NCBI RefSeq assembly: GCF_004571075.1 | Contig: NZ_SPQP01000008.1 | Span: forward strand, 1 to 64,000 | Length of the DNA stretch: 64,000 nucleotides | Origin: Blastococcus sp. TF02A-35 | Lineage (GTDB): Bacteria; Actinomycetota; Actinomycetes; Mycobacteriales; Geodermatophilaceae | Direction of reading: 5' to 3' | Shown: piece by piece, positions 5,904-54,683 of the stretch | Numbering within the stretch: the first letter of the stretch is position 1 | How the letters are laid out: each line of letters begins with the position of its first letter | Made by a program: the position numbers and the translations under genes | The notes under the pieces: generated by a model | Told to the model about the DNA's origin: nothing | The model's database searches: none | The model's input: the letters and a program-made list of their open reading frames with translations, nothing else

Positions 5904-6286
5904 GACGGAACGCCCGCCAGCGAGGCGGCGGCCTGCCGCCACGCGTCGCGCAGCGGCTCGACGACCGCCCGGCAGGACGCGATGCGGTTGCCGTCCAGCT
6001 TGAGGTTGGCCTGGACCAGCTCGTTGACCAGCCACTTGTACAGGGCGGCCAGGCGCGGCCCGCCCTCCCACACGTCCACCTGGAGGCTGGACAGCAGCTC
6101 CAGGACGATCGACTGCGCGTGCTGCAGCTCCTCGTTGGCCCGGGCCCGGTTGCCCTCCGCGACGGCCAGCTGAGCGCGCTCGAGGTCGAGGGTCAGGCGG
6201 TCGTACAGCATGACCAGCACCTGCTGCGGCGAGGCGGTGGCGACGGAGTCGCCGAGGTAGCGGGCGCGAAGCGAAGCAGCACTCAT
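5900..6286 (-). CDS. fliS: Flagellin export chaperone FliS
   Basis: 128 aa. FliS binds the flagellin C-terminus in the cytoplasm and keeps it unpolymerised until export. Family features: RYLGDSVATASPQQVLVMLYDRL near the N-terminus (the conserved Y and the P-x-x-L-v-x-mLYDrl motif), a central four-helix-bundle pattern, and LYKWLVNELVQANLKLD toward the C-terminus. In Bacillus-type circuits FliS also cooperates with FliW and CsrA, both encoded in this window. It is followed with a 4-base overlap by the FliT-like gene. Confidence 0.94.
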   Translation of the reverse strand: MSAASLRARYLGDSVATASPQQVLVMLYDRLTLDLERAQLAVAEGNRARANEELQHAQSIVLELLSSLQVDVWEGGPRLAALYKWLVNELVQANLKLDGNRIASCRAVVEPLRDAWRQAAASLAGVPS

Positions 6287-44312: not shown

Positions 44313-45569
44313 ATGCGTTCGAGTCGCCCGGGAGGTGTCGTGGAGTCGCTGGAGTCGGTGCTCGACGAGCTCTCGGGCGAGCGGCTCGACGGCATGTTCG
44401 GCCCGGCGTTGCTGGAGCGGCTGGCCCCGCTGCTGGCGCTGCAGAACCGGGTCGCGGCGGAGGTGGCGCGCACGGTGCGGCAGTGCGAGCTGGCCGACGC
44501 CGCGGAGGTCGACGGCAAGGCCTCGATGCAGTCCTGGCTGCGCGGGCATGCCCGGTTCTCCGCCTCTGCGGCGAACGCGCTGGTGCGCACGGGGCGGGCG
44601 CTGGAGCACCTGCCGGCGGTGGCCGCGGCGTTCGCCGCCGGTGCGCTCTCGGCCGAGGCGGTCGGGGTCATCGCGCCCGTCGCGGCGGAGAGGAACCGGG
44701 TGGCCGCCGCGGAGCAGGGCGTGGACCTCGCCGGGATCGACGAGCTGCTGGCCGAGATTGCGAGCACCCAGTTCCACCCGCAGCTGCGCACGGCGGTCGC
44801 GCACTACCTCGCGCGGCTGGACCCCGACGGTGCCGAGCCCGACCCGACCGAGCAGCGGTCGCTGAGCTGGGCCAAGCACGCCGACGGCTCCCTCACCGGC
44901 CGGCTGGAACTGGATGCGGTGGGCGGGGAGAAGGTGCAGGCCGCGATCGAGTCGATCCTGCAGGCCTCCCGCCCGGCCGGGGACACCCGCACCCGCGCCC
45001 AGCAGCAGGCCGACGCCCTGGTCCAGCTGTGCGACAACCAGCTCGCCGCCGGCGCCCTGCCCACGCTGCGCACCCAGAAGCCGCACGCCGTGGTCACCGT
45101 CCCCATCGCAGACCTGGTCGACCCCGGCACCGGCCTGGGAGCCGCGACCCTCGGCTTCGGTGCCACCGTCTCCGCCGCCCGCGCCCGCTGGCTGGCCTGC
45201 GACGGCACCGTCACCCGCATCGTTCTGGGCCCCGAGGGCCAGCCCCTCGACCTCGGGCGCTCTCACCGCGTCGTCCCCCACCACCTGCGCCGCGCCGTCG
45301 AGGCCCGGGACGGCGGCTGCGTCTTCGCCGGCTGCGACGCCCCCAGCCACTGGTGCGACGTCCACCACCTCGTCCACTGGGCCGACGGCGGAGACACCTC
45401 GCTGGAGAACTCAGGGCTGCTGTGCGAGCGGCACCACACCAAGGTCCACCACGGGTTCCGGGTGGCACGACAACCCGACGGCCGGTGGCGGACCTGGCGA
45501 CCCGACGGCACCGAGGTCCTCGTCCTGCCGCGGATCGCGAACGAACCGGTCACCACCCGCGCGGGGTGA
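44313..45569 (+). CDS. DUF222 and HNH endonuclease domain protein
   Basis: 418 aa. The DUF222 domain covers ~30-290 (LLALQNRVAAEVARTVRQCE; RTGRALEHLPAVAAAFAAGA). A C-terminal HNH motif has RDGGCVFAGCDAPSHWCDVH then HLVHWADGGDTSLENSGLLC and ERHHTKVHHG, with Zn Cys and catalytic His. The family (13E12-type in mycobacteria) occurs in many copies per actinobacterial genome. Its role is unknown; association with mobile DNA is suspected. The all-Met, low-overlap context suggests an independent unit. Confidence 0.92.
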   Translation: MRSSRPGGVVESLESVLDELSGERLDGMFGPALLERLAPLLALQNRVAAEVARTVRQCELADAAEVDGKASMQSWLRGHARFSASAANALVRTGRALEHLPAVAAAFAAGALSAEAVGVIAPVAAERNRVAAAEQGVDLAGIDELLAEIASTQFHPQLRTAVAHYLARLDPDGAEPDPTEQRSLSWAKHADGSLTGRLELDAVGGEKVQAAIESILQASRPAGDTRTRAQQQADALVQLCDNQLAAGALPTLRTQKPHAVVTVPIADLVDPGTGLGAATLGFGATVSAARARWLACDGTVTRIVLGPEGQPLDLGRSHRVVPHHLRRAVEARDGGCVFAGCDAPSHWCDVHHLVHWADGGDTSLENSGLLCERHHTKVHHGFRVARQPDGRWRTWRPDGTEVLVLPRIANEPVTTRAG

Positions 45570-45623
45570 CCCAGCCGGTCGCACGGCGGGGCCGGCGCTC
45601 CTCGGCCCGTACTCTGAACTCCC

Positions 45624-46679
<1,056 letters not shown>

Positions 46680-46697
<18 letters not shown>

Positions 46698-47837
46698 CGG
46701 AGTGCAAACCTCCTGGTCAGTGGCCTGTTGGCGTCGCTCAGTCCGCAGGGAGTCCGCAGGATCGTCCAGTGCTGCGGACATCAGCCCGTCCGTGGCAGCC
46801 CTCGTGCGGTCGTCCGCGTCGGGCCACAGGTGTCCGTAGGTGTTCAGCGTTGTGGTCGCCGAGGCGTGCCCGAGGGCGCGCTGCACGGTGACCACGTCGC
46901 AGCCCGACGCGATGAGCCCCGAGGAGAAGAAGTGCCGGAGGTCGTGCAACCGCAAGCCCGTCAGCCCGGCCGCTGACTGCGCCTTACGCCACTGGTGGGC
47001 GACGGTGTTCTGGTGCGGCGGGGTGCCGGCCGGGGTGGCGAAGAGCCAGCGGTCCGGGCCACCGGCGGTAAGGTGCCGCTCGACGTGCCCGGCGATCAGG
47101 GTGAGCAGCCGGTCGGGGACGACGACCGTCCGCTCCGAGCCGTGCTTGGGTGCCCGCAGCTCGGCGGTGCCGTTCGGCCCGCGTTGCACCTGGCGGCTGA
47201 CGATGACCCGTCTGCGGAGGAAGTCGACGTCGCCGACATGCAGCGCGGCCGCCTCTCCGAGTCGGAGGCCACCGAAGGCGCAGACGGCGAGAAAGGCGGC
47301 GAACCGGTCGTCGGCGGCCGCGAGCAGGGCGCCGACCTGCGGTGGCGTGGGGATGGCCATGGCGTGCTCGCGGCGCCGACGGCGGGGGAGTGTCACCCCG
47401 TCGCTGGGGTCGGTGGCGATCACCCGATCGCGGACGGCGCCGCGCAGCACCGCGCGCACGTTCTGCACCCGGGTGTGGACGGTGCCCGGAGCCAGGCCGG
47501 CCGCGGTCATCTGCTTGACCCACGACTCGACGTGCGACCGGCGGAGCAGGCGCAGCTCGACGTCGGTGAAGGTGGCGGTCCGGACGGCGAGGCTCATGGC
47601 CAGTTCGGTGCCGGGAGCCCAGACCTGGCGGGCGGCCCAGACGGCGTAAAACGCGGCGAGGGTGATCCGGCCGGCCTTGGGGTCGACGTACGTGCCGGTG
47701 ACGACGGTGGCGGTGACCTCGTCCAGCCAGCGTTGGGCGTCGGCCTTCCGCTTGAAGTGCCGGGCGTGCTCCTTGCCGTCGGCGTCGCGGTACCGGGGGC
47801 GGTACGTGCCGTCGGGCCGCCGCGCGATGCTCGCCAT
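46680..47837 (-). CDS. int: Tyrosine-type site-specific integrase (open frame through att)
   Basis: N-terminal arm-binding domain (RRPDGTYRPRYRDADGKEHA), SAM-like core domain (~75-140), then the catalytic domain with R192 (FGGLRLGEAAALH), H298 and R301 (LRLHDLRHFFSSG), H324 (RALGHASATTTL) and nucleophile Y334 (NTYGHLWPD). It recombines attP with the ychF attB. There is no stop before the attachment core. Residues 381-386 (SDVEAE) are encoded by the core, and the frame then runs on antisense to ychF down to 45411 (808 codons in all). In the excised circle it would end after 16 further codons at 53739 (402 aa). The end given here is the element boundary. Confidence 0.92.
46741..46762 (+). repeat. 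Putative integrase arm-site repeats, left end
   Basis: Two adjacent 11-mers, GTCCGCAGGGA and GTCCGCAGGAT, 43 bases inside attL. They match the pair GTCCGCAAGAA x2 near attR (53666-53687) as GTCCGCARGRN. They lie inside the integrase coding region. Confidence 0.5.
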
Positions 47838-47925
47838 GTCTCTCCTCGATCGCCGGAGCGCTGCCCGGAGTCAGCCTGCCGCGAGTGGACGACAGTGCGC
47901 TACGCCGGTAGCCGGCACCTGTGCA

Positions 47926-48111
47926 TCACCGGTCGCTGTTCGCGACCTTGCTCTCCCACCAGCGGTCGCACTCGGCCTCGTCGTAGAGCACGCGGCGGCC
48001 GACGCGCACCCCGGCGGGGCCGATGCCGATGTGACGCCAGTAGCGGACGGTGGCCGGGCTGGTGCGGAACCGGTCGGCCACTTCTTCGGTGGTCAGCAGT
48101 CGGACGGTCAT
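47926..48111 (-). CDS. Excisionase-like MerR/AlpA helix-turn-helix protein
   Basis: 61 aa from ATG 48111 with a GAGGAG ribosome site. MTVRLLTTEEVADRFRTSPA, then TVRYWRHIGIGPAGVRVGRR and VLYDEAECDRWWESK. This is the winged HTH_17 fold of excisionases and recombination directionality factors. Encoded 88 bases upstream of the integrase on the same strand, it probably favours excision and may also regulate int. Confidence 0.9.
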   Translation of the reverse strand: MTVRLLTTEEVADRFRTSPATVRYWRHIGIGPAGVRVGRRVLYDEAECDRWWESKVANSDR

Positions 48112-48248
48112 GGCTCCTCCTCGCCGTTCGGCCGGGCGGTTGGACACGCACCCGTCATGGGGGAGAAGGCGCCAATCCGGGGCGATTGGTGACAGCCAGG
48201 CCAGGGTGACATCGAGAAATCCTGGTGGCGCCGCAAGTCACCCCGATG

Positions 48249-48761
48249 TCACCCCCGTGGCCACCGCTGGATCGTGGCGCCGCGTCGGTGCACGGCGCGC
48301 ATGACTTCGCCGACGGCCGCGGCGATGGAGGGCAGGTGCCGGTCGTAGATCGTGCCCTGCTCGACCTGGACGGCGAGCTCCCGCAGCAGGTCCACCCAAG
48401 CGAGCTGCCGCGGCTGCGGCGCTGCTGCGGGCGGCGTTGCCGGGACGGTGACCACCCGCTCGACGATCTCGACGGCGCTCCGCCCGGAAGAGGCGGCGCG
48501 TGCCTGCTCCCAGGCTCGGTGCCGGCACGTCGCCGAGCACCACTTCGGGATCGGTCCCCGTGACCGCGGGGTGATCGGCCCGCGGCACCACCCGCAGGCC
48601 GTCGCCGCTGCCCTTCGGGCCTCGGACCTCGAGCCGCTCTCTGCCGTCGCTCCGTCGAGTGGCGACGGCCGTCGCGCTGCGGCTCGCTCCTGCTGCTGAC
48701 GGCGACGCCGTTCGCGCTCACGCTGGCGTGCGCGGTACTCGCCGCTTCCCTTGCTGCCCAT
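48249..48761 (-). CDS. Hypothetical protein with CxxC...C...C zinc-binding motif
   Basis: 170 aa. The N-terminus is very basic and Gln/Arg-rich (RARQRERERRRRQQQERAAA). The middle has CGWCRGPITPRSRGPIPKWC then SATCRHRAWEQARAA, a four-Cys zinc finger of a type seen in small actinobacterial integrative elements. The C-terminal half is helical (LAWVDLLRELAVQVEQGTIY). Probably DNA- or RNA-binding. It lies upstream of the excisionase and integrase on the same strand, so it may be co-regulated. Function unknown. Confidence 0.75.
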   Translation of the reverse strand: MGSKGSGEYRARQRERERRRRQQQERAAARRPSPLDGATAESGSRSEARRAAATACGWCRGPITPRSRGPIPKWCSATCRHRAWEQARAASSGRSAVEIVERVVTVPATPPAAAPQPRQLAWVDLLRELAVQVEQGTIYDRHLPSIAAAVGEVMRAVHRRGATIQRWPRG

Positions 48762-49127
48762 GATCCCGAGCGTCCGGGGTGACGTTCATGTACCTGTCAC
48801 CACGAATTGCTCGTCGGCCTGATGCACCAGGTGTGTGGGACTGACTCCGTCTTTGCGCCACAGACGCGTATCGACGCAGTCCGACGCGGGTCCGGCTGCT
48901 CTGGCCGTGCGGCCTCCTGGGTGGGAGGATCGAAGTTGGGTGAAGTGGTAGTCAGCTCTTCCTCTTCCATCGCGCCAGAGGCTGAAACGGCACGCAGGTG
49001 GGCTTCCCACGCGGCAGGCGACACTGGGCATCGCACTGGGTCTCGCAGCGGAGCTAGCGAGGAACTCGACACGTAATCTCAGATACCCGCTCAGACGTCA
49101 GTCTGGGCACTGCTGGCGCGCTTGTTA
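48762..49127. other. Intergenic control region of the element
   Basis: 366 bp between the divergent zinc-finger gene and the winged-helix-like/DUF3800 unit. Short open frames here look non-genuine. It must hold the two divergent promoters. I saw AGCATGCT (~49147) close to the downstream start, but no clear promoter pair. Confidence 0.4.
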
Positions 49128-50078
49128 ATGACGACCAGCATGAAGCATGCTGATCTCATGAAGACGCAGCCGACACGCAAGCGCACCGGCAGCCGAGCAG
49201 CGCCTGCCGAGGCCCTGGCAGTGGCTGCCGATGAGAAGTTCACCCGAGAGTTCCTGCTCCAACGCGCTCGCCGTGAGAGCACGCCCATCCGCCAGGATTT
49301 CGTGCAGGCCCCGCGTGGTGGTGCGAGTCGCCACGGGCCCTTGGCGGCCTTCGTGACTGGGCGGGACCTGCGGGGTCTGCTGGCCTACCTGCTGGCCGTC
49401 GGGATCATCAGCAACGGCGATCGGGACGACGGCTGGAGCACCAGCCTGCCCATTGCCACGTGGGCCCGGGCGCTGGGACTGACTCGCAACGCCACACCGG
49501 CCTCCGCCGCGACTGGAGTGAGCAAGGTGTTCGCCCGGCTGGTCGACCGCAAGCTAATCGAGAAAACCCGGCATGGACGAGAGCGACAGATCAGGGTCAC
49601 CCTGCTCCGTGAGGACGGTTCAGGGGATCCATATGTCCGCCCCAAGGGCGATACCGGAAACAAGTTCCTGCAGCTCCCGCACGCCTTCTGGAACGAGGGC
49701 TGGCACGAGAAGCTCGACCTGCCGGCCACGGCCATGCTGCTGGTCGCCCTCCACGCCAAGCCGGTGTTCCCCATGCCCACCGAGCACATGCCCCAGTGGT
49801 ACGGGTGGTCGGCCGACACCGCCGAGCGCGGTCTGAAGACCCTGCAGGACGTCGGTCTGCTCACCAAGTCCTCTCGCTGGGTCAAGGACGCAGTGAGCCC
49901 CATCGGGGCCAAGAACCTCACTGAGTACCGGCTAACGGGGTCCTTCGAGCGGGTCCCTACCTCCAAGCCCAAGCCCAAGCGGGCCATGAAGGACGCGTCG
50001 GCGAGCATCGCCGCCGACGACGACACCACATCCGACACTGACACGGACCCCGTCACGACCAAGGAGACCGCCCCGTGA
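49128..50078 (+). CDS. Winged-helix-like protein paired with DUF3800
   Basis: 316 aa from ATG 49128 (TTG 49122, ATG 49140 or 49158 also possible; no clear ribosome site). A basic N-terminus, then FVTGRDLRGLLAYLLAVGII and SLPIATWARALGLTRNATPA then SKVFARLVDRKLIEKTRHGR, an HTH and wing. A second helix-turn-helix-like part has PTEHMPQWYGWSADTAERGL then KTLQDVGLLTKSSRWVKD. This resembles replication-initiator or MarR-type winged helices. The acidic tail ends TDTDPVTTKETAP. The stop overlaps the DUF3800 GTG (GTGA), so the two act together. The specific role is unknown. Confidence 0.75.
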   Translation: MTTSMKHADLMKTQPTRKRTGSRAAPAEALAVAADEKFTREFLLQRARRESTPIRQDFVQAPRGGASRHGPLAAFVTGRDLRGLLAYLLAVGIISNGDRDDGWSTSLPIATWARALGLTRNATPASAATGVSKVFARLVDRKLIEKTRHGRERQIRVTLLREDGSGDPYVRPKGDTGNKFLQLPHAFWNEGWHEKLDLPATAMLLVALHAKPVFPMPTEHMPQWYGWSADTAERGLKTLQDVGLLTKSSRWVKDAVSPIGAKNLTEYRLTGSFERVPTSKPKPKRAMKDASASIAADDDTTSDTDTDPVTTKETAP

Positions 50079-50824
50079 GCTCGTCCATGCCCGGGGAGGA
50101 ATCCACCGACGGGAACACGCTCCCGCCGGCGTCGCTCCCCGCGAACAGTTCCCTGCAGATGTTCTACGTCGACGACTCCGGGGTTGAGAACACCGGCTGG
50201 GCCACGTTCTCCTGGATCCAGACCACACCAAACGGGTGGCGAGCGATGCTCCGTCGCTGGCTGGACCTGCGCAAGGAGCTGTATGAGCAATTCCGCATCC
50301 CGCCCTCGGTCGAGATCCACGCCACCAAGTTCCTAGGCAGTCGCGGTCGCCCGTCCACTGACCCGGCGTTCAACCACCGCAAGCAGCGCATCCAGGCCGC
50401 GGAGCTGATGCTGAGCACGATCGCCGGCATGCCGGGGGTCGGCATCGGCACCGCCTACCGGCACACCACCGCACGCGGGTCGCGCTACGCGGAGGAGAAG
50501 GCCGACCTCTACCTGTCCCTGACCCAGCACCTGGACCAGCAGCTCGCTGACGCAGGCAACCTCGGGCTCATCTTCATGGACGGGACCGGCACCGACCCCA
50601 CCTACCGCCGTGCCCACCGAGCACTGAAGCTGGCCACCCGCTCGATCGTCGAAGACCCCATTTTCCAAGGCTCACATCTGTCCCAGCCCGTGCAGGCCGC
50701 CGACCTCATCGCCTGGACCACCTACCAGCACCTACTCCGCCATCCCGGCAAGAAGCAGTTTTGGACCTGGTACCAGGATTACCTGCAGCCCCTAGACGTC
50801 AACGGAGGCCCTATCCAGCTGTAG
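50075..50824 (+). CDS. DUF3800 (RNase H-like fold) protein
   Basis: 249 aa, GTG start at 50075 coupled to the upstream gene. Family motifs: LQMFYVDDSGVENTGW (acidic D-D near the first strand), SVEIHATKFLG, LGLIFMDGTGTDPTYR (second acidic strand) and SQPVQAADLIAWTTYQHLLR (third Asp). These are the predicted metal ligands of an RNase H-like nuclease fold. DUF3800 genes are frequent in mobile and defence-rich regions; a nucleic-acid-cleaving role is inferred, not shown. It is followed by a hairpin terminator. Confidence 0.88.
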   Translation: MSSSMPGEESTDGNTLPPASLPANSSLQMFYVDDSGVENTGWATFSWIQTTPNGWRAMLRRWLDLRKELYEQFRIPPSVEIHATKFLGSRGRPSTDPAFNHRKQRIQAAELMLSTIAGMPGVGIGTAYRHTTARGSRYAEEKADLYLSLTQHLDQQLADAGNLGLIFMDGTGTDPTYRRAHRALKLATRSIVEDPIFQGSHLSQPVQAADLIAWTTYQHLLRHPGKKQFWTWYQDYLQPLDVNGGPIQL

Positions 50825-50849
50825 CAGAGCCCGACCCCGGACATGGCTA

Positions 50850-50880
50850 GACCCGCCAATCCACGAATGTGGGGCGGGTC
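50850..50880 (+). terminator. Terminator after DUF3800 gene
   Basis: GACCCGCC (50850-50857) pairs with GGCGGGTC (50873-50880), with an inner CCAC/GTGG stem, 26 bases past the stop. Confidence 0.7.
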
Positions 50881-50892
50881 CGCTCTGCGAGA

Positions 50893-50919
50893 CTAGCACG
50901 GCAACAACTGCCGCGCTAG
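50893..50919. repeat. Imperfect inverted repeat
   Basis: CTAGCACGGCA and TGCCGCGCTAG, 11-bp arms with one mismatch, 5-nt loop, just downstream of the DUF3800 terminator. Could be a second terminator or an operator for the small ORF downstream. Confidence 0.45.
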
Positions 50920-51110
50920 CGGGCAGCTGGCTTCTGCCGCGGCGGCCCGTACAAGATCGCGCAGCGGTACGCAGCTGGCGAGCGAGACAGCAAGCCGCTG
51001 ATCGATCGGATGGCCCTTGGGCGGTCCCCCCTCGCCTCCGTCTTGAAGCCTCGATGGATCGTCGGCTCTCAGGACGCGACGCTAGCGGCGGTGTCGGCCA
51101 AGCTCCGGCC

Positions 51111-51296
51111 GTGACTGGTATCCACGAAATTTTCTGCCCCCGCCACGGCGACCGGTACCTATGCATCCAGGAGCCTGACGGGCCGGTGATTGTGCACTCA
51201 CACCAGGGCGCCGGCCCGTCACGGAGCATTCCTCGCGACGCCCGGCTGCAGCGGTACTGCAGTGCATGCGCCTGGATGGAGGACATGGACGAGTAG
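51111..51296 (+). CDS. Possible small Cys-rich protein
   Basis: 61 aa from GTG 51111 (VTGIHEIFCPRHGDRYLCIQ ... RYCSACAWMEDMDE). Cysteines in CPRHGDRYLC and CSAC suggest a zinc-ribbon. No ribosome site of note and no family recognised, so coding status is uncertain. An ATG at 51054 would add 19 residues. Confidence 0.35.
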   Translation: MTGIHEIFCPRHGDRYLCIQEPDGPVIVHSHQGAGPSRSIPRDARLQRYCSACAWMEDMDE

Positions 51297-51565
51297 GTCC
51301 CGACAGACGCCTTCTGCGAACACGGTCAGAGGGGAGCCCTTCGACATCGGCCGCGCGCTCTCGCGTCGTCTCGGGCAGCCGAGAGGTACGAGCCCACGTT
51401 CTGTCCGCTAGGAACGGCTCGTCAGGGCGCTTCGGCGTCGCCGATTCCGCCGGAGACTCTGACGGCGGCATCGGCAACGGCCCGGCGCTGGCACCGGTCG
51501 CCCAGACAAGTCTGGCGGCCCCACAACTTGGCGTGCCTGGCGACCAAACGAGCGGGATCCGAACC

Positions 51566-52774
51566 TCAGCGCCGCCTGCTAGAGATCGGGGTGACTTCGC
51601 CGTGCCCTTCCCGTCTCGAGGACGGTGTCCGACGGATCCGGCCTTCGAGCGGAATCGGCAGTGCGACGTCCTCCGATGAAACAGATGACCAGTCGATCCA
51701 CCGGGAAACCATTCGTTCACTCAAACCGACGACCCGGGCCGCTATGGTGACCGCTTCTTCTATCGCGGGTTCGGTTCGCGCGCGCCGGTCCAGGGCGCGT
51801 TGCAGCCAGATTGGTTCCTCATTGGTTGTGGGAACGGGCTCGTGCTTGTTCCAGCCGCGTTTAGAGATCTGCTTGTAAAGGCTGGTGGCTTGGTCAGCGT
51901 CGATGATGCCTAGTTGCTGGAAGCGAACGACCAGCGCTTTGATTGCGATGCCCCAAGTCGCTTTCAACTCGGCGAGCGTAGAAAGGGTTACTCGACCACC
52001 GAGTCGTTCCCAGTCCTCGATCAGTGGCTGCGCTGGAGCCAAGAAGGCGCTGGCAAACCGATGCGCTTGGCGTTCGATACGTTGGGCGTCAGCGGCAGTG
52101 GCCGGTGGAGGCATGTGGGAATGGAGTCCTAGATGGCCGATTTCGTGCGCAATTGTGAAGCGCTGCCTGTCTCCTGGTACGCCACCCTCGCCGGGCCTAC
52201 TGACTCGCACGAAGGGGACGCCGTCGATGCGGTGCGACATCCCGAGGTGGCGGCCGAGCTCGCTCACGAGCGGGAGGACGACGCATCCGAGTCGATCGGC
52301 AGCGCGCATCGCATTGCCCACGACGGCATCTGGTGCGATGTCGGCCGCGACGCGGACCTCGTCGGCGAATCGCTCGATGGCGTCGCCGTCATTGAGGTCG
52401 TCGTGGAAGAGTGGGATTTGGTCGGGAATCCGCTTTAGCTGCAGTGTGGTAATTACCTCGTGCGCGATCAGGTCGTCGGCCATGACACTGTCGACGGTCT
52501 TGGCGTTCGCGTCGGCGTAGGCCCGCAGCCAGGGACGGGTTGAAACCGCGTCGTGGCGTCCCCTCAGGAGAAACTCGGGCGTGCATTGCAACCCGATCGC
52601 GAGGGTCGACAGCAGGTCGTCATCGATGGGGTGGCGCCCATTTTCGATTTGCGAAACAAGTTTATTGCTGGGCACGTCACGGCCAGTTATGGCACGTGCG
52701 AGCTCGCTCTGACTGATATTTGCGGCAAGTCGCAGGACTCGAACGCGCTCGCCGATGGCAGCGGGCGAAGTCAC
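51566..52774 (-). CDS. XRE-family HTH fused to ImmA/IrrE metallopeptidase
   Basis: 402 aa from the GTG at 52774, which has a GAGAGG ribosome site (a TTG at 52789 is also possible). HTH_3 domain at ~8-70: GERVRVLRLAANISQSELAR, NKLVSQIENGRHPIDDDL. The ImmA/IrrE domain has the zincin motif RFTIAHEIGHLGLHSH and a following HRFASAFLAPAQPLIEDW helix with the third ligand region. Such single-chain proteins bind DNA and cleave repressors; ImmA is the ICEBs1 induction protease. It lies 48 bases downstream of the unknown 199-aa gene, probably one operon from the palindromic promoter at 53425-53458. Less GC-rich than the host. Confidence 0.9.
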   Translation of the reverse strand: MTSPAAIGERVRVLRLAANISQSELARAITGRDVPSNKLVSQIENGRHPIDDDLLSTLAIGLQCTPEFLLRGRHDAVSTRPWLRAYADANAKTVDSVMADDLIAHEVITTLQLKRIPDQIPLFHDDLNDGDAIERFADEVRVAADIAPDAVVGNAMRAADRLGCVVLPLVSELGRHLGMSHRIDGVPFVRVSRPGEGGVPGDRQRFTIAHEIGHLGLHSHMPPPATAADAQRIERQAHRFASAFLAPAQPLIEDWERLGGRVTLSTLAELKATWGIAIKALVVRFQQLGIIDADQATSLYKQISKRGWNKHEPVPTTNEEPIWLQRALDRRARTEPAIEEAVTIAARVVGLSERMVSRWIDWSSVSSEDVALPIPLEGRIRRTPSSRREGHGEVTPISSRRR

Positions 52775-52822
52775 CGGGAGACCTCTCAAGAAAGTAAGGA
52801 GGAGAGCAGGGCGTTGGTGAGG

Positions 52823-53422
52823 TCACGCAACGCCGGCGCTGCCGTCCTCGGTGCCCTCTTCGTCATCGAACCCGTCAAGCCCCTCTTCGGTCGACGTGAA
52901 GTTCGGCGGCGGGGTCATGTCGATCAACGGAATGACGGCGCCGAGCAGCAGCGTCACGGGGCCGTTGCCCTCGCTGCCGACAACTTCCGCAGCGATGATC
53001 TCGTCGAGCGTGTGGTCCTCGCTGCTGATGTAGCCGAGCAGCCAGCGCTCCTCCACGAAGAGTGCATCGACCTCGGTCGTCAGCAGGCTCGACCCGAGGC
53101 CGCACACAAATCGGTACGCGCCGTCTGCAGTCCGAGTGCCGCGCTTCACGCGGTACTTGCGCAGGTGCCCGCCACCGCTGGCGATCAGGTCCACGCCGCC
53201 GCTCACCTCCTCGATGGCGAACCCTTCTCGCGACGCCGCGCGACGCGCGGCGTCGAGGAAGAGTTCACGCTCAAGTGCGCTTGCCGGGCGGCGCGTCCGG
53301 CGGAAGGAGCGGTGCTGGTCGGTCGCGACACCGACCAGGTAGCCCGACTCGTCTCCGATCTCGGACATCTCCCGGGCGATGGCCTTGAGACTGTGAACCT
53401 CGGTCTCTGGTGGGCGAACCAT
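52823..53422 (-). CDS. Unknown protein in operon with XRE-ImmA
   Basis: 199 aa, no family recognised. Residues 1-140 are alpha/beta (SEIGDESGYLVGVATDQHRS; LFLDAARRAASREGFAIEEV; YRFVCGLGSSLLTTEVDALF). The C-terminal ~60 are hydrophobic then acidic (EGNGPVTLLLGAVIPLIDMT; TEEGLDGFDDEEGTEDGSAG). ATG at 53422 sits 6 bases after a TATTAT -10, so the mRNA is predicted leaderless. Being first in the XRE-ImmA operon, it could be the substrate, toxin or effector controlled by that protein. Confidence 0.75.
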   Translation of the reverse strand: MVRPPETEVHSLKAIAREMSEIGDESGYLVGVATDQHRSFRRTRRPASALERELFLDAARRAASREGFAIEEVSGGVDLIASGGGHLRKYRVKRGTRTADGAYRFVCGLGSSLLTTEVDALFVEERWLLGYISSEDHTLDEIIAAEVVGSEGNGPVTLLLGAVIPLIDMTPPPNFTSTEEGLDGFDDEEGTEDGSAGVA

Positions 53423-53424
53423 GC

Positions 53425-53458
53425 GGGAATAATATTCCCAGGCAATTCACCCTGTCCA
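53425..53458 (-). promoter_or_regulatory. Promoter and palindromic operator of the XRE-ImmA operon
   Basis: Minus strand: -35 TGGACA (53458-53453), 18-bp spacer, -10 TATTAT (53434-53429), then TCCCGC and the ATG. The -10 is embedded in the perfect palindrome GGGAATA-A-TATTCCC (53425-53439), a natural binding site for the XRE domain. Autoregulation is inferred. Confidence 0.65.
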
Positions 53459-53789
53459 GCAGACTCGCCGGGAGGCCTCACTGGGCGTGGCTCCTGCGGG
53501 GTCGGTCCTCCTGGCAGCCTCCCGCCGGGTGCGGCGAAGCCGGAAGGGGGGGCGGGGGGCCGTCCCGGAGGGACCGAAGGGCCCTTCCGGCGGCCGTTGC
53601 GGCTGGCATCCTCTCGGTGCGCGGAGCGGGGCAGTCGAGCTCCTTAGAGCGGCTAAGAGATCTTGGTCCGCAAGAAGTCCGCAAGAAGTTCAATAGCCCT
53701 CGTCTCCGGCCGTCGTTGGCCAACGACGAACACGCAGGTCAAGTGGCAAGTCCGTCGTCCTCCGCAGACGTCCAAACGCCCCCGGAACG
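53440..53789. other. Right-end non-coding segment of the element
   Basis: 350 bp between the XRE-ImmA promoter and attR. It holds the -35 element at its start, the 11-bp arm-type repeats (53666-53687) and, if the element circularises, the last 16 codons and stop (53739-53741) of the integrase. I saw no other gene. Confidence 0.5.
53666..53687 (+). repeat. Putative integrase arm-site repeats, right end
   Basis: Two perfect tandem copies of GTCCGCAAGAA, 102 bases inside attR, in the same orientation as the related GTCCGCAGG repeats near attL. Confidence 0.5.
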
Positions 53790-53808
53790 TTCCGCTTCAA
53801 CGTCTGAC
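53790..53808 (+). repeat. attR core (direct repeat)
   Basis: TTCCGCTTCAACGTCTGAC, identical to 46680-46698. It looks like a detached end of ychF, placed 5 bases before the stop of the convergent sigma factor gene. Confidence 0.88.
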
Positions 53809-53813
53809 ACCCC

Positions 53814-54683
53814 TCAGCGACGCAGTTCGGCCACCTCGTCGAGCCGGCCGAGCTTCTGCGGGTTCCGCATGGCGTACATGCGGGTGATCCGGCCGGCCTC
53901 GACGACGAACGTGATCGCGGTGTCGAACTCGCCTCCCGGGTCGATCCGTGCGCCGACCGCTCCGTTGACCAGCGGCGTGGTGACCGGCACGGGCGGCACG
54001 AGGTCGGCGAAGCGGGAGAGCGCGTTGGCGACCCGTGCCCGGCCGGCGACGGGGCGCAGCGCCGCGGGAGCCAACCCGCCGCCGTCGGCGACCACGACGA
54101 CATCGGGCGCCAGCACGTCGAGCAACCCCTGCACGTCGCCGCCGGTGAGCGCGCCGAGGAACCGCTCCACGACCTGCTGCTGCTCGGTGCGGCTCACCTC
54201 CATCCGGGGACGCCGGGCCGCCACGTGCTCGCGCGCCCGGTGCGCTATCTGCCGCACCGCCGCGGCCGACTTCCCCACGGCGGTGGCGATCTCGTCGAAG
54301 GGCACGTCGAACACCTCGTGCAGCACCAGAACGGCGCGCTCGGTCGGCCCGAGCGTCTCCAGCACGGTCAGCATCGCGATCGAGACGCTCTCGGCCAGCT
54401 CGACGTCGTCGGCCACGTCGGGACTGGTCAGCAGCGGCTCGGGCAGCCACTCGCCGACGTAGTCCTCCCGCCGGCGGGCCAGGGTGCGCAGCCGGTTCAA
54501 CGCCTGTCGGGTGACGATCCGGACCAGGTACGCGCGCGGCTCCCGCACGGTCTCCTGGTCCACGTCGGCCCACCGCAGCCACGTCTCCTGCACCACGTCG
54601 TCGGCATCAGCGGCCGAGCCGAGCATCTCGTAGGCGACGGTGAACAGCAGGCTGCGGTGGGCCACGAACGGGTCGTCGGTCAT
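53814..54683 (-). CDS. sigJ: ECF41-group sigma factor (SigJ-like) with SnoaL-like C-terminal domain
   Basis: 289 aa. Sigma region 2: DPFVAHRSLLFTVAYEMLGS, DADDVVQETWLRWADVD, REPRAYLVRIVTRQALNRLR. Region 4: LGPTERAVLVLHEVFDVPFD then EIATAVGKSAAAVRQIAHRA. The ~110-residue SnoaL-like extension carries the ECF41 hallmarks DGGG (VVVADGGGLAPAAL) and an NPDKL-like NPQKL near the end. In ECF41 this domain replaces an anti-sigma factor. The start overlaps the stop of the upstream decarboxylase gene (ATGA), the usual partner, and a matching promoter lies upstream of that gene. Confidence 0.94.
   Translation of the reverse strand: MTDDPFVAHRSLLFTVAYEMLGSAADADDVVQETWLRWADVDQETVREPRAYLVRIVTRQALNRLRTLARRREDYVGEWLPEPLLTSPDVADDVELAESVSIAMLTVLETLGPTERAVLVLHEVFDVPFDEIATAVGKSAAAVRQIAHRAREHVAARRPRMEVSRTEQQQVVERFLGALTGGDVQGLLDVLAPDVVVVADGGGLAPAALRPVAGRARVANALSRFADLVPPVPVTTPLVNGAVGARIDPGGEFDTAITFVVEAGRITRMYAMRNPQKLGRLDEVAELRR

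Follow-up and report, generated by a model that had tools for sequence, protein, structure and literature searches.

The DNA analysed here, which we call the window, is a stretch of 64,000 nucleotides from Blastococcus sp. TF02A-35 (positions 1 to 64,000 of NZ_SPQP01000008.1). The genome, G000 among our samples, consists of 87 contigs, with the window on contig C86; its close kin on plasmids and contigs come from actinomycetes. Within the window lies an element of about 7.1 kb framed by a 20-bp direct repeat (46679-46698 and 53789-53808). Its features are the following.

46679-46698, plus strand: left attachment core, the 3' end of ychF including the stop codon; repeat of 53789-53808.
46699-47837, minus strand: tyrosine integrase (PF00589, E 8e-26; phrog_1 integrase, E 4e-61).
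47926-48147, minus strand: excisionase-like MerR/HTH_17 protein (PF12728, E 1.6e-10).
48249-48761, minus strand: small basic protein with a Cys motif (weak PHROG matches).
49122-50078, plus strand: gene 1, a two-winged-helix protein, probable plasmid-type replication initiator; start at 49122 or at the ATG at 49128.
50075-50824, plus strand: gene 2, a DUF3800 protein (PF12686) with an RNase HII-like fold in its model, predicted nuclease.
50850-50883, minus strand: conserved hairpin (34 nt) of a predicted small RNA, predicted +1 at about 50883/50884.
50890-50895, minus strand: predicted -10 element TAGTCT with upstream TG; A..T pattern at -12/-13 in 34 of 34 aligned rows.
51566-52789, minus strand: XRE-ImmA/IrrE regulator/peptidase, RmrA-like (PF06114, PF01381; PADLOC RmrA, E 3.5e-58).
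52823-53422, minus strand: partner ORF of the XRE-ImmA gene, no family match in Pfam, PADLOC, NCBIfam and PHROGs scans.
53789-53808, plus strand: right attachment core, repeat of 46679-46698.

A preliminary description of this DNA took the region to be an integrative element without transfer genes, and the element itself is borne out. Besides the direct repeat there is the evidence of congeners, in which the ychF site is found both in single copy and occupied. Two congener stretches (L127 and L128) have one copy of the attachment site at the end of ychF and no related integrase; two genomes (G006 and G007) have related integrases at the same site, together with MobF-like relaxases and without gene 1 or gene 2. 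A Pfam scan of the element's eight ORFs, three of which are without a clear family, recognized no transfer family (FtsK-like or relaxase). Actinomycetes are known to carry integrative elements called AICEs, such as pSAM2. The window element resembles them in having an integrase, an excisionase and a rep-like gene together in one integrated element, but it is without a recognized transfer gene and its attachment site is ychF, not a tRNA gene. The integrase frame (45411-47837, minus strand) is stop-free inside the element and reads through attL, giving 808 codons when integrated; judged from the reading frames, it would end after 402 codons in the excised form. Since the frame has no stop inside the element, integration may alter the C terminus of the integrase. 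The ychF 3' ends of G006 and G007 (L124 and L125) look like an insertion hotspot, with a shared integrase and a swapped payload.

What gene 1 encodes is best approached through its predicted model, which has two winged-helix domains (pLDDT 81). Its sequence gives sub-threshold HTH matches only in Pfam, weak matches, mostly to HTH regulators, in a profile search of PDB sequences, and a weak match to phrog_678 (initiation O-like, E 0.001). A Foldseek search with the model returned nothing at E <= 0.001. When the Foldseek candidates were realigned structurally, the top 43 rows (Z 10.8 to 9.2) were all plasmid initiators, Rep/RepE54 of mini-F followed by Pi of R6K, matching residues 42-274, and the row that follows them matches over a single domain, with Z 8.4. 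The two domains are arranged as in RepE (Z up to 10.8, with 185 residues and rmsd 4.3 for the Rep/RepE54 chains) and in Pi (Z 9.2), over 185-193 residues. The differences are that gene 1 has about 10% identity to these proteins, no Pfam Rep match and no iterons that we could find. The "HTH-like segments" noted earlier in gene 1 thus correspond to two winged-helix domains in the model, and the wording understates a plasmid-initiator fold.

At E <= 1e-3, relatives of gene 1 occur in 61 of 72,556 plasmid records and in 0 of 50,697 phage records; they are scattered over actinobacterial plasmids, mostly without DUF3800, and among the matches listed 36 of 40 are annotated "hypothetical protein". On the plasmid pRE117-2 (8,528 bp), 0 of 10 annotated proteins match a Rep family of Pfam; the gene-1 relative (327 aa) is the largest of the five that lack any telling match. 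A repeat cluster lies about 2 kb away from it. Some relatives are chromosomal (in G292, G225 and G068), with no integrase detected there by the queries used. The Rep_3 model matches gene 1 in none of Pfam, NCBIfam and PHROGs, and near gene 1 a search for iterons or an origin gave two-copy repeats only, with a 10-mer scan at background. Because no iterons were found, membership of the Rep_3 family is not claimed. From fold and distribution, gene 1 is probably the replication initiator of the 7.1-kb element, and an initiator-like family may be pointed out here behind "hypothetical protein" labels. The 522-aa RepA of pWTY27, as an excerpt of PMC3583192 describes it, was considered as a relative of gene 1 and dropped.

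Gene 2 was described earlier as a DUF3800 protein with acidic motifs, which is confirmed. It scores 35.3 bits against PF12686, where the cut-off is 21, and all 35 aligned relatives keep D33, D34, D169 and D210 without exception, together with the Asp-Asp-Ser-Gly motif. With the predicted model, RNase HII/H2 entries rank first (Z 10.3, 162 residues, rmsd 3.5); the best Foldseek E value is 2e-3, with nothing at E <= 0.001, and a profile search of PDB sequences gave no match. In RNase HII the motif of the first strand is D-E-A-G, with which the D-D-S-G in the first strand of gene 2 may be compared. The likeness is one of fold and motif; identity to RNase HII/H2 is 9-17%, and the other catalytic positions of gene 2 are tentatively assigned. 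We predict that gene 2 is a nuclease with an RNase H-type fold. Relatives of gene 2 are present on 39 plasmid records, and most of the DUF3800 copies examined stand alone. A divergent clade of Micromonosporaceae DUF3800 genes (L064, L072 and L073) has Arg in place of the Glu80 of the 32 other tree rows.

In the excerpts we cite, DUF3800 proteins are described as having an RNase H fold with a catalytic rearrangement and as seen with putative non-coding RNAs (PMC10910872); they adjoin Cas12a2 and also occur in VI-F loci (PMC10910872, PMC12669027), being placed in VI-F and V-A2 loci (PMC12669027). No stated function for them was found in the literature searched.

The four-base overlap (GTGA) of genes 1 and 2 is borne out, with ORFs at 49122-50078 and 50075-50824, both on the plus strand. 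The preliminary description went further and treated the two genes as one system. Similar pairs do exist. Of 35 DUF3800 loci on genome contigs, 7 have gene 1 immediately ahead of DUF3800; of 11 DUF3800 loci fetched from plasmids, 3 do, with gene 1 truncated in one of the three. With the window this makes 11 paired loci, about ten of them distinct, as L066, where gene 1 is interrupted, shares large pieces of sequence with L081. The overlap is of 4 bp in 10 of the 11 (the GTG at 5989 being used for L023) and of 1 bp in L056. On the gene-1 tree, from which the truncated L024 and the interrupted L066 are left out, the nine rows with an intact pair form two clades (2 changes versus 8.3 in shuffled labels, none of 500 shuffles being as low); for the DUF3800 tree the pair label takes 4 changes versus 8.8 (again none of 500). 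Among the loci are several near-duplicate pairs (L066/L081, L056/L144, L054/L146, L068/L150 and L025/L147). Among 394 genomes of the class, gene 1 is found in 17, gene 2 in 10 and both in 2, in one of which they are not adjacent. That the two families co-occur elsewhere is borne out by the overlapping pairs; at the level of genomes their co-occurrence is low, which speaks against the preliminary description. Because co-occurrence is so low in the class genomes, the pair, as read from these loci, is real yet a local capture, not a rule.

If the winged-helix protein guided or repressed the DUF3800 nuclease, the two would constitute a two-protein system. The overlapping arrangement at about ten distinct loci, the restriction of intact pairs to two gene-1 clades and the fact that the identities of gene 1 and gene 2 rise together would all be expected of such partners. 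However, the majority of the DUF3800 genes examined, and of the gene-1 relatives found, are not paired with the other gene, the predicted fold of gene 1 is that of an initiator rather than of a dedicated partner, and lone DUF3800 genes keep something else, namely the RNA discussed below. We consider a two-protein system improbable.

This RNA was discovered by comparing the DNA beyond DUF3800 stop codons. A terminator had been proposed after 50824. The plus-strand hairpin there has no T run, and a consensus scan of both strands detected no terminator; the proposal is not confirmed, and the locus is read as a small RNA gene, convergent to gene 2 and just past its end. At 36 of 44 loci a hairpin comes directly after the DUF3800 gene, starting at most 53 bases from its end, and it is present in 32 of the 35 rows of the DUF3800 gene tree. 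The count of 44 leaves out duplicates (L044, L046 and L063) as well as further fragments and very distant relatives (L049-L053 and L084-L092, of which L086 ends at a contig end); L050 (G225), outside the count, has the RNA. In four of the 36 the DUF3800 frame is broken or shortened (L069, L077, L079 and L082), and the distance for L079 is approximate. The eight loci without an adjacent hairpin are L045, L047, L048, L064, L072, L073 and the fragments L078 and L083. A covariance model built from the hairpins matches the window copy at 50838-50885 with 58.7 bits (two chance-level matches in the window, of 20.1 and 15.5 bits, were set aside). It finds the RNA elsewhere in the locus in L045, L064 and L072 and does not find it in L047, L048 and L073. 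The displaced RNA of L064 and L072 is on the strand of the DUF3800 gene, and in L072 it is beside an integrase.

The alignment of the hairpin has 34 rows; it omits a copy identical to another and a copy lying at the end of its record. It contains fourteen pairs, with 92.6% of cells paired. Double changes occur at 7 pairs versus 3.5 in shuffles, a count that kin rows can inflate; covariation is 0.203 versus 0.094 when shuffled (none of 500 shuffles reaches it), and with partners slid it does not exceed 0.074. Columns 5-39, read on the minus strand, hold 25 G-U, 5 G-C and 4 A-U pairs in the 34 rows. Read on the plus strand the same columns give 25 A-C mismatches, and for this reason we assign the RNA to the minus strand. 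Folding energy is unremarkable (z -1.8 to -2.4 in three copies). Ahead of the hairpin a NANNNT box is found at -12 in 24 rows and at -13 in 10, that is in 34 of 34, with a mean of 1.3 per offset. It is often preceded by TG, and part of the copies have a T(T/G)G signal near -35. Near the window copy, whose -35 is poor, neither a sigma-70 promoter nor a terminator was reported by a consensus scan of both strands. The -10 signature together with pairing on the coding strand leads us to predict that the RNA starts at the hairpin. Of 36 copies, 24 have a run of at least three T within 16 bases after the hairpin. The copy in the window is among the 12 without one, so its 3' end is uncertain and the RNA may be longer. 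A 3' tail of TAGCT or TTGCT is conserved in most copies. In sum, a small RNA of about 45 nt is predicted, transcribed from the first base of the hairpin.

One may also start from the RNA. In the class sample the covariance model matches in 9 of 394 genomes; the five matches of at least 49.9 bits are all in genomes with a DUF3800 gene, four of them adjacent to it and one (G173) at 1.3 kb; the G225 gene is split between two frames. In a sample of the order, 12 of 397 genomes have a match, and all nine of at least 45.3 bits are adjacent and convergent. As the window is in both samples, there are 13 distinct strong matches; 13 of 13 are by a DUF3800 gene and 12 are adjacent and convergent. Seven of them are, or equal, sequences from which the model was built: the window, L144 (equal to L056), L146 (L054), L147 (L025), L150 (L068), and G170 and G350, whose RNA stretches are the same as those of L070 and L098. 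The other six (G173, G225, L145, L148, L149 and L151) are independent of the model. Seven weaker matches score 24.5-36.8 bits. One of these, L152, has a DUF3800 gene about 1 kb off on the same strand, and at L140, L141, L142, L143, L153 and L154 there is none within 1.5 kb. The hairpins of L140 (1501-1550) and L153, at about 34-35 bits, have similar flanks and could be orphan copies or have other partners.

In 30 loci with gene 1 but lacking DUF3800, the covariance model finds no RNA. When lone loci are compared by blastn (L055/L058, L059/L061, L061/L098 and L023/L071), the similarity consists of the DUF3800 gene and the RNA and essentially nothing beyond. In L056 the triplet of gene 1, DUF3800 and RNA stands alone between thiS- and thiG-like sequence (names by sequence reading), with genes for a DAO-family oxidoreductase and a phosphomethylpyrimidine kinase further out. 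The DUF3800 gene is accompanied far more constantly by the hairpin RNA than by gene 1, and its linkage to the RNA is near-obligate.

Several suggestions can be made regarding what the RNA does. One is that the hairpin and its promoter are an antisense or transcription-interference device, which only tunes expression of DUF3800 and whose RNA does not act as a ligand of the protein. The convergent layout right at the gene end is what such a device would need, and since a third of the copies are without a T run, antisense transcripts might enter the gene. It would be harder to understand, however, why the hairpin is conserved, as its sequence and its covariation both show. Five Streptomycetaceae copies (L059, L061, L098, L130 and L134) have an extra hairpin between the DUF3800 gene and the conserved hairpin, and in L064 and L072 the RNA is placed elsewhere. 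A DUF3800-associated RNA of a different type, DUF3800-VI, even lies on the other side of its gene in L085. An antisense device of this kind is possible and, on this evidence, rather unlikely.

The case of L085 brings in RNAs that are already known. DUF3800-I and DUF3800-IX are listed among RNAs in an excerpt of PMC11701678. Rfam has no family match in the window or in the relatives; its DUF3800 models give none at E <= 10 in 46600-53900 or in a 201-base stretch, and none at E <= 5 in five relatives. A search of 100 genomes of the phylum with RF02969 gave no match, and its controls were likewise silent. At one of seven distant DUF3800 loci, L085, DUF3800-VI precedes the gene by about 44 bases, with a -10-like TAGGAT ahead and a T run behind. 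Because DUF3800-associated RNAs are a known class, the RNA of the window, which Rfam does not match, is taken to be a new variant. It shares with the Rfam DUF3800 RNAs (-I, -VI, -IX and others) a compact structure of about 50 nt beside a PF12686 gene, and with the DUF3800-VI of L085 a -10-like box just ahead and, in other copies than that of the window, a T run after. It differs in being convergent and downstream rather than in the 5' region, and in being a single bulged hairpin where DUF3800-VI has a three-helix form. Rfam files DUF3800-VI as cis-regulatory, and the layout in the window does not fit this; an opposite-strand arrangement argues against a 5' cis-regulator. The combination of promoter-like box, compact RNA and T run is common to two dissimilar RNAs placed on opposite sides of their genes, and this one comparison suggests that DUF3800-linked RNAs are small independent RNAs.

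Type III toxin-antitoxin systems are defined by a tandem-repeat RNA directly upstream of the toxin gene on the same strand. Such systems, ToxIN for example, have in common with the present unit a nuclease and a small structured RNA on mobile DNA, but the window RNA is single-copy, convergent and downstream, and the nuclease fold differs. A single convergent downstream hairpin does not fit the definition of type III.

Another potential role for the RNA could be that of guide or scaffold of an RNA-guided nuclease. An RNase H-type nuclease with a conserved RNA recalls OMEGA systems, and DUF3800 has been placed beside Cas12a2 and in VI-F loci in the excerpts cited (PMC10910872, PMC12669027). Compared with OMEGA and CRISPR guides, however, the window RNA has a predicted +1 at the hairpin, hence no 5' guide, and a 3' tail that in most copies is conserved, not variable; no guide is obvious, the transcript ends being predicted only. 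We regard this role as very improbable. A compact hairpin, a start at its first base and a conserved tail would leave no room for a 5' guide and would suit a fixed ligand, and from these predicted features we favour an RNA-controlled nuclease over a guided one.

The position behind gene 1 allows a further suggestion, that gene 2 and the RNA control plasmid replication, the RNA as primer or inhibitor and the protein in RNase H-like processing. Coupling to an initiator-like gene in two clades would then have a reason, and the plasmid records with gene 2 relatives would be in accord. Yet on genome contigs lone copies have housekeeping genes around them, the triplet of L056 is in a thiamine-gene region, and most initiator relatives are without gene 2 and the RNA. 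Such a role in replication seems to us a poor prospect.

The explanation that we prefer, and think slightly better than an even chance given the predicted models and the comparisons made, is that gene 1 is the initiator of the integrative element and that the element carries an RNA-controlled DUF3800 nuclease as cargo, for addiction or defence. Gene 1 would be the replication initiator of a small plasmid-like integrative element, and gene 2 with the convergent hairpin RNA gene would make up a cargo unit distinct from it, about 0.8 kb long. The RNA would be made from the first base of the hairpin and would bind the DUF3800 protein as a fixed ligand, either inhibitor or cofactor, rather than as a guide. 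The nuclease under its control may serve maintenance of the carrier DNA (addiction) or defence. The unit would have been captured behind rep, where the 4-bp overlap would couple synthesis of the nuclease to that of Rep. The earlier idea of a nucleic-acid-targeting cargo is still plausible in this form, with the amendment that its parts would be a protein and an RNA, not two proteins.

More tentatively, at a little less than even chances, we suggest that this is a mobile ribonucleoprotein unit not described before, about 0.8 kb in size, in which a hairpin RNA of about 45 nt controls an RNase H-fold nuclease and is transcribed towards it; the unit has lone chromosomal, plasmid and rep-captured copies. 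If correct, the class of DUF3800 RNAs would shift from supposed cis-regulatory motifs to trans-acting partners of a nuclease. DUF3800 adjoins rare CRISPR effectors and orphan structured RNAs. The present case, in actinomycetes that can be cultured, is compact, with RNA and gene almost inseparable and with strand, -10 box and structure legible from the sequence, and a cassette of about 0.8 kb makes the question of DUF3800 and RNA testable.

With respect to defence, the surroundings offer little. PADLOC-DB 2.0.0 gives 0 families for gene 1 or gene 2 at E <= 1. We compared 91 ORFs neighbouring 17 DUF3800 loci, chosen from 156, with PADLOC and Pfam. Among the PADLOC matches listed (25 of 35), each model, SduA and RmrA included, was matched in one member; among the Pfam matches listed (25 of 115), mostly housekeeping families appear. 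A clear defence-island signal was not seen around the 17 loci, a comparison that has no matched control and is hence weak. The defence reading has little support from neighbours.

A few observations on the neighbourhood may be added. The XRE-ImmA/IrrE gene at 51566-52789 is a neighbour, outside the DUF3800 unit. A module of an unknown protein with XRE-ImmA/IrrE recurs near gene 1, with or without DUF3800, at 51566-53422 (minus strand) in the window, 6965-8840 in L022, 2962-4932 in L065 and 13060-15073 in L026. The ImmA genes of these modules match that of the window weakly, the partners show no phmmer match to the window's partner, and the window copy is RmrA-like by PADLOC. Behind the small RNA, at 51054-51296 (plus strand), is an ORF of 80 aa with Cys/His pairs, which has no Pfam match and, except for same-locus copies, no relative in the fetched loci scanned. 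Finally, the ORF beside ychF (44313-45569, plus strand) has many DNA-level copies in G000 and congeners (query positions 1-570 correspond to 45000-45570 of the window); we take this multicopy family to be of the 13E12/HNH type.
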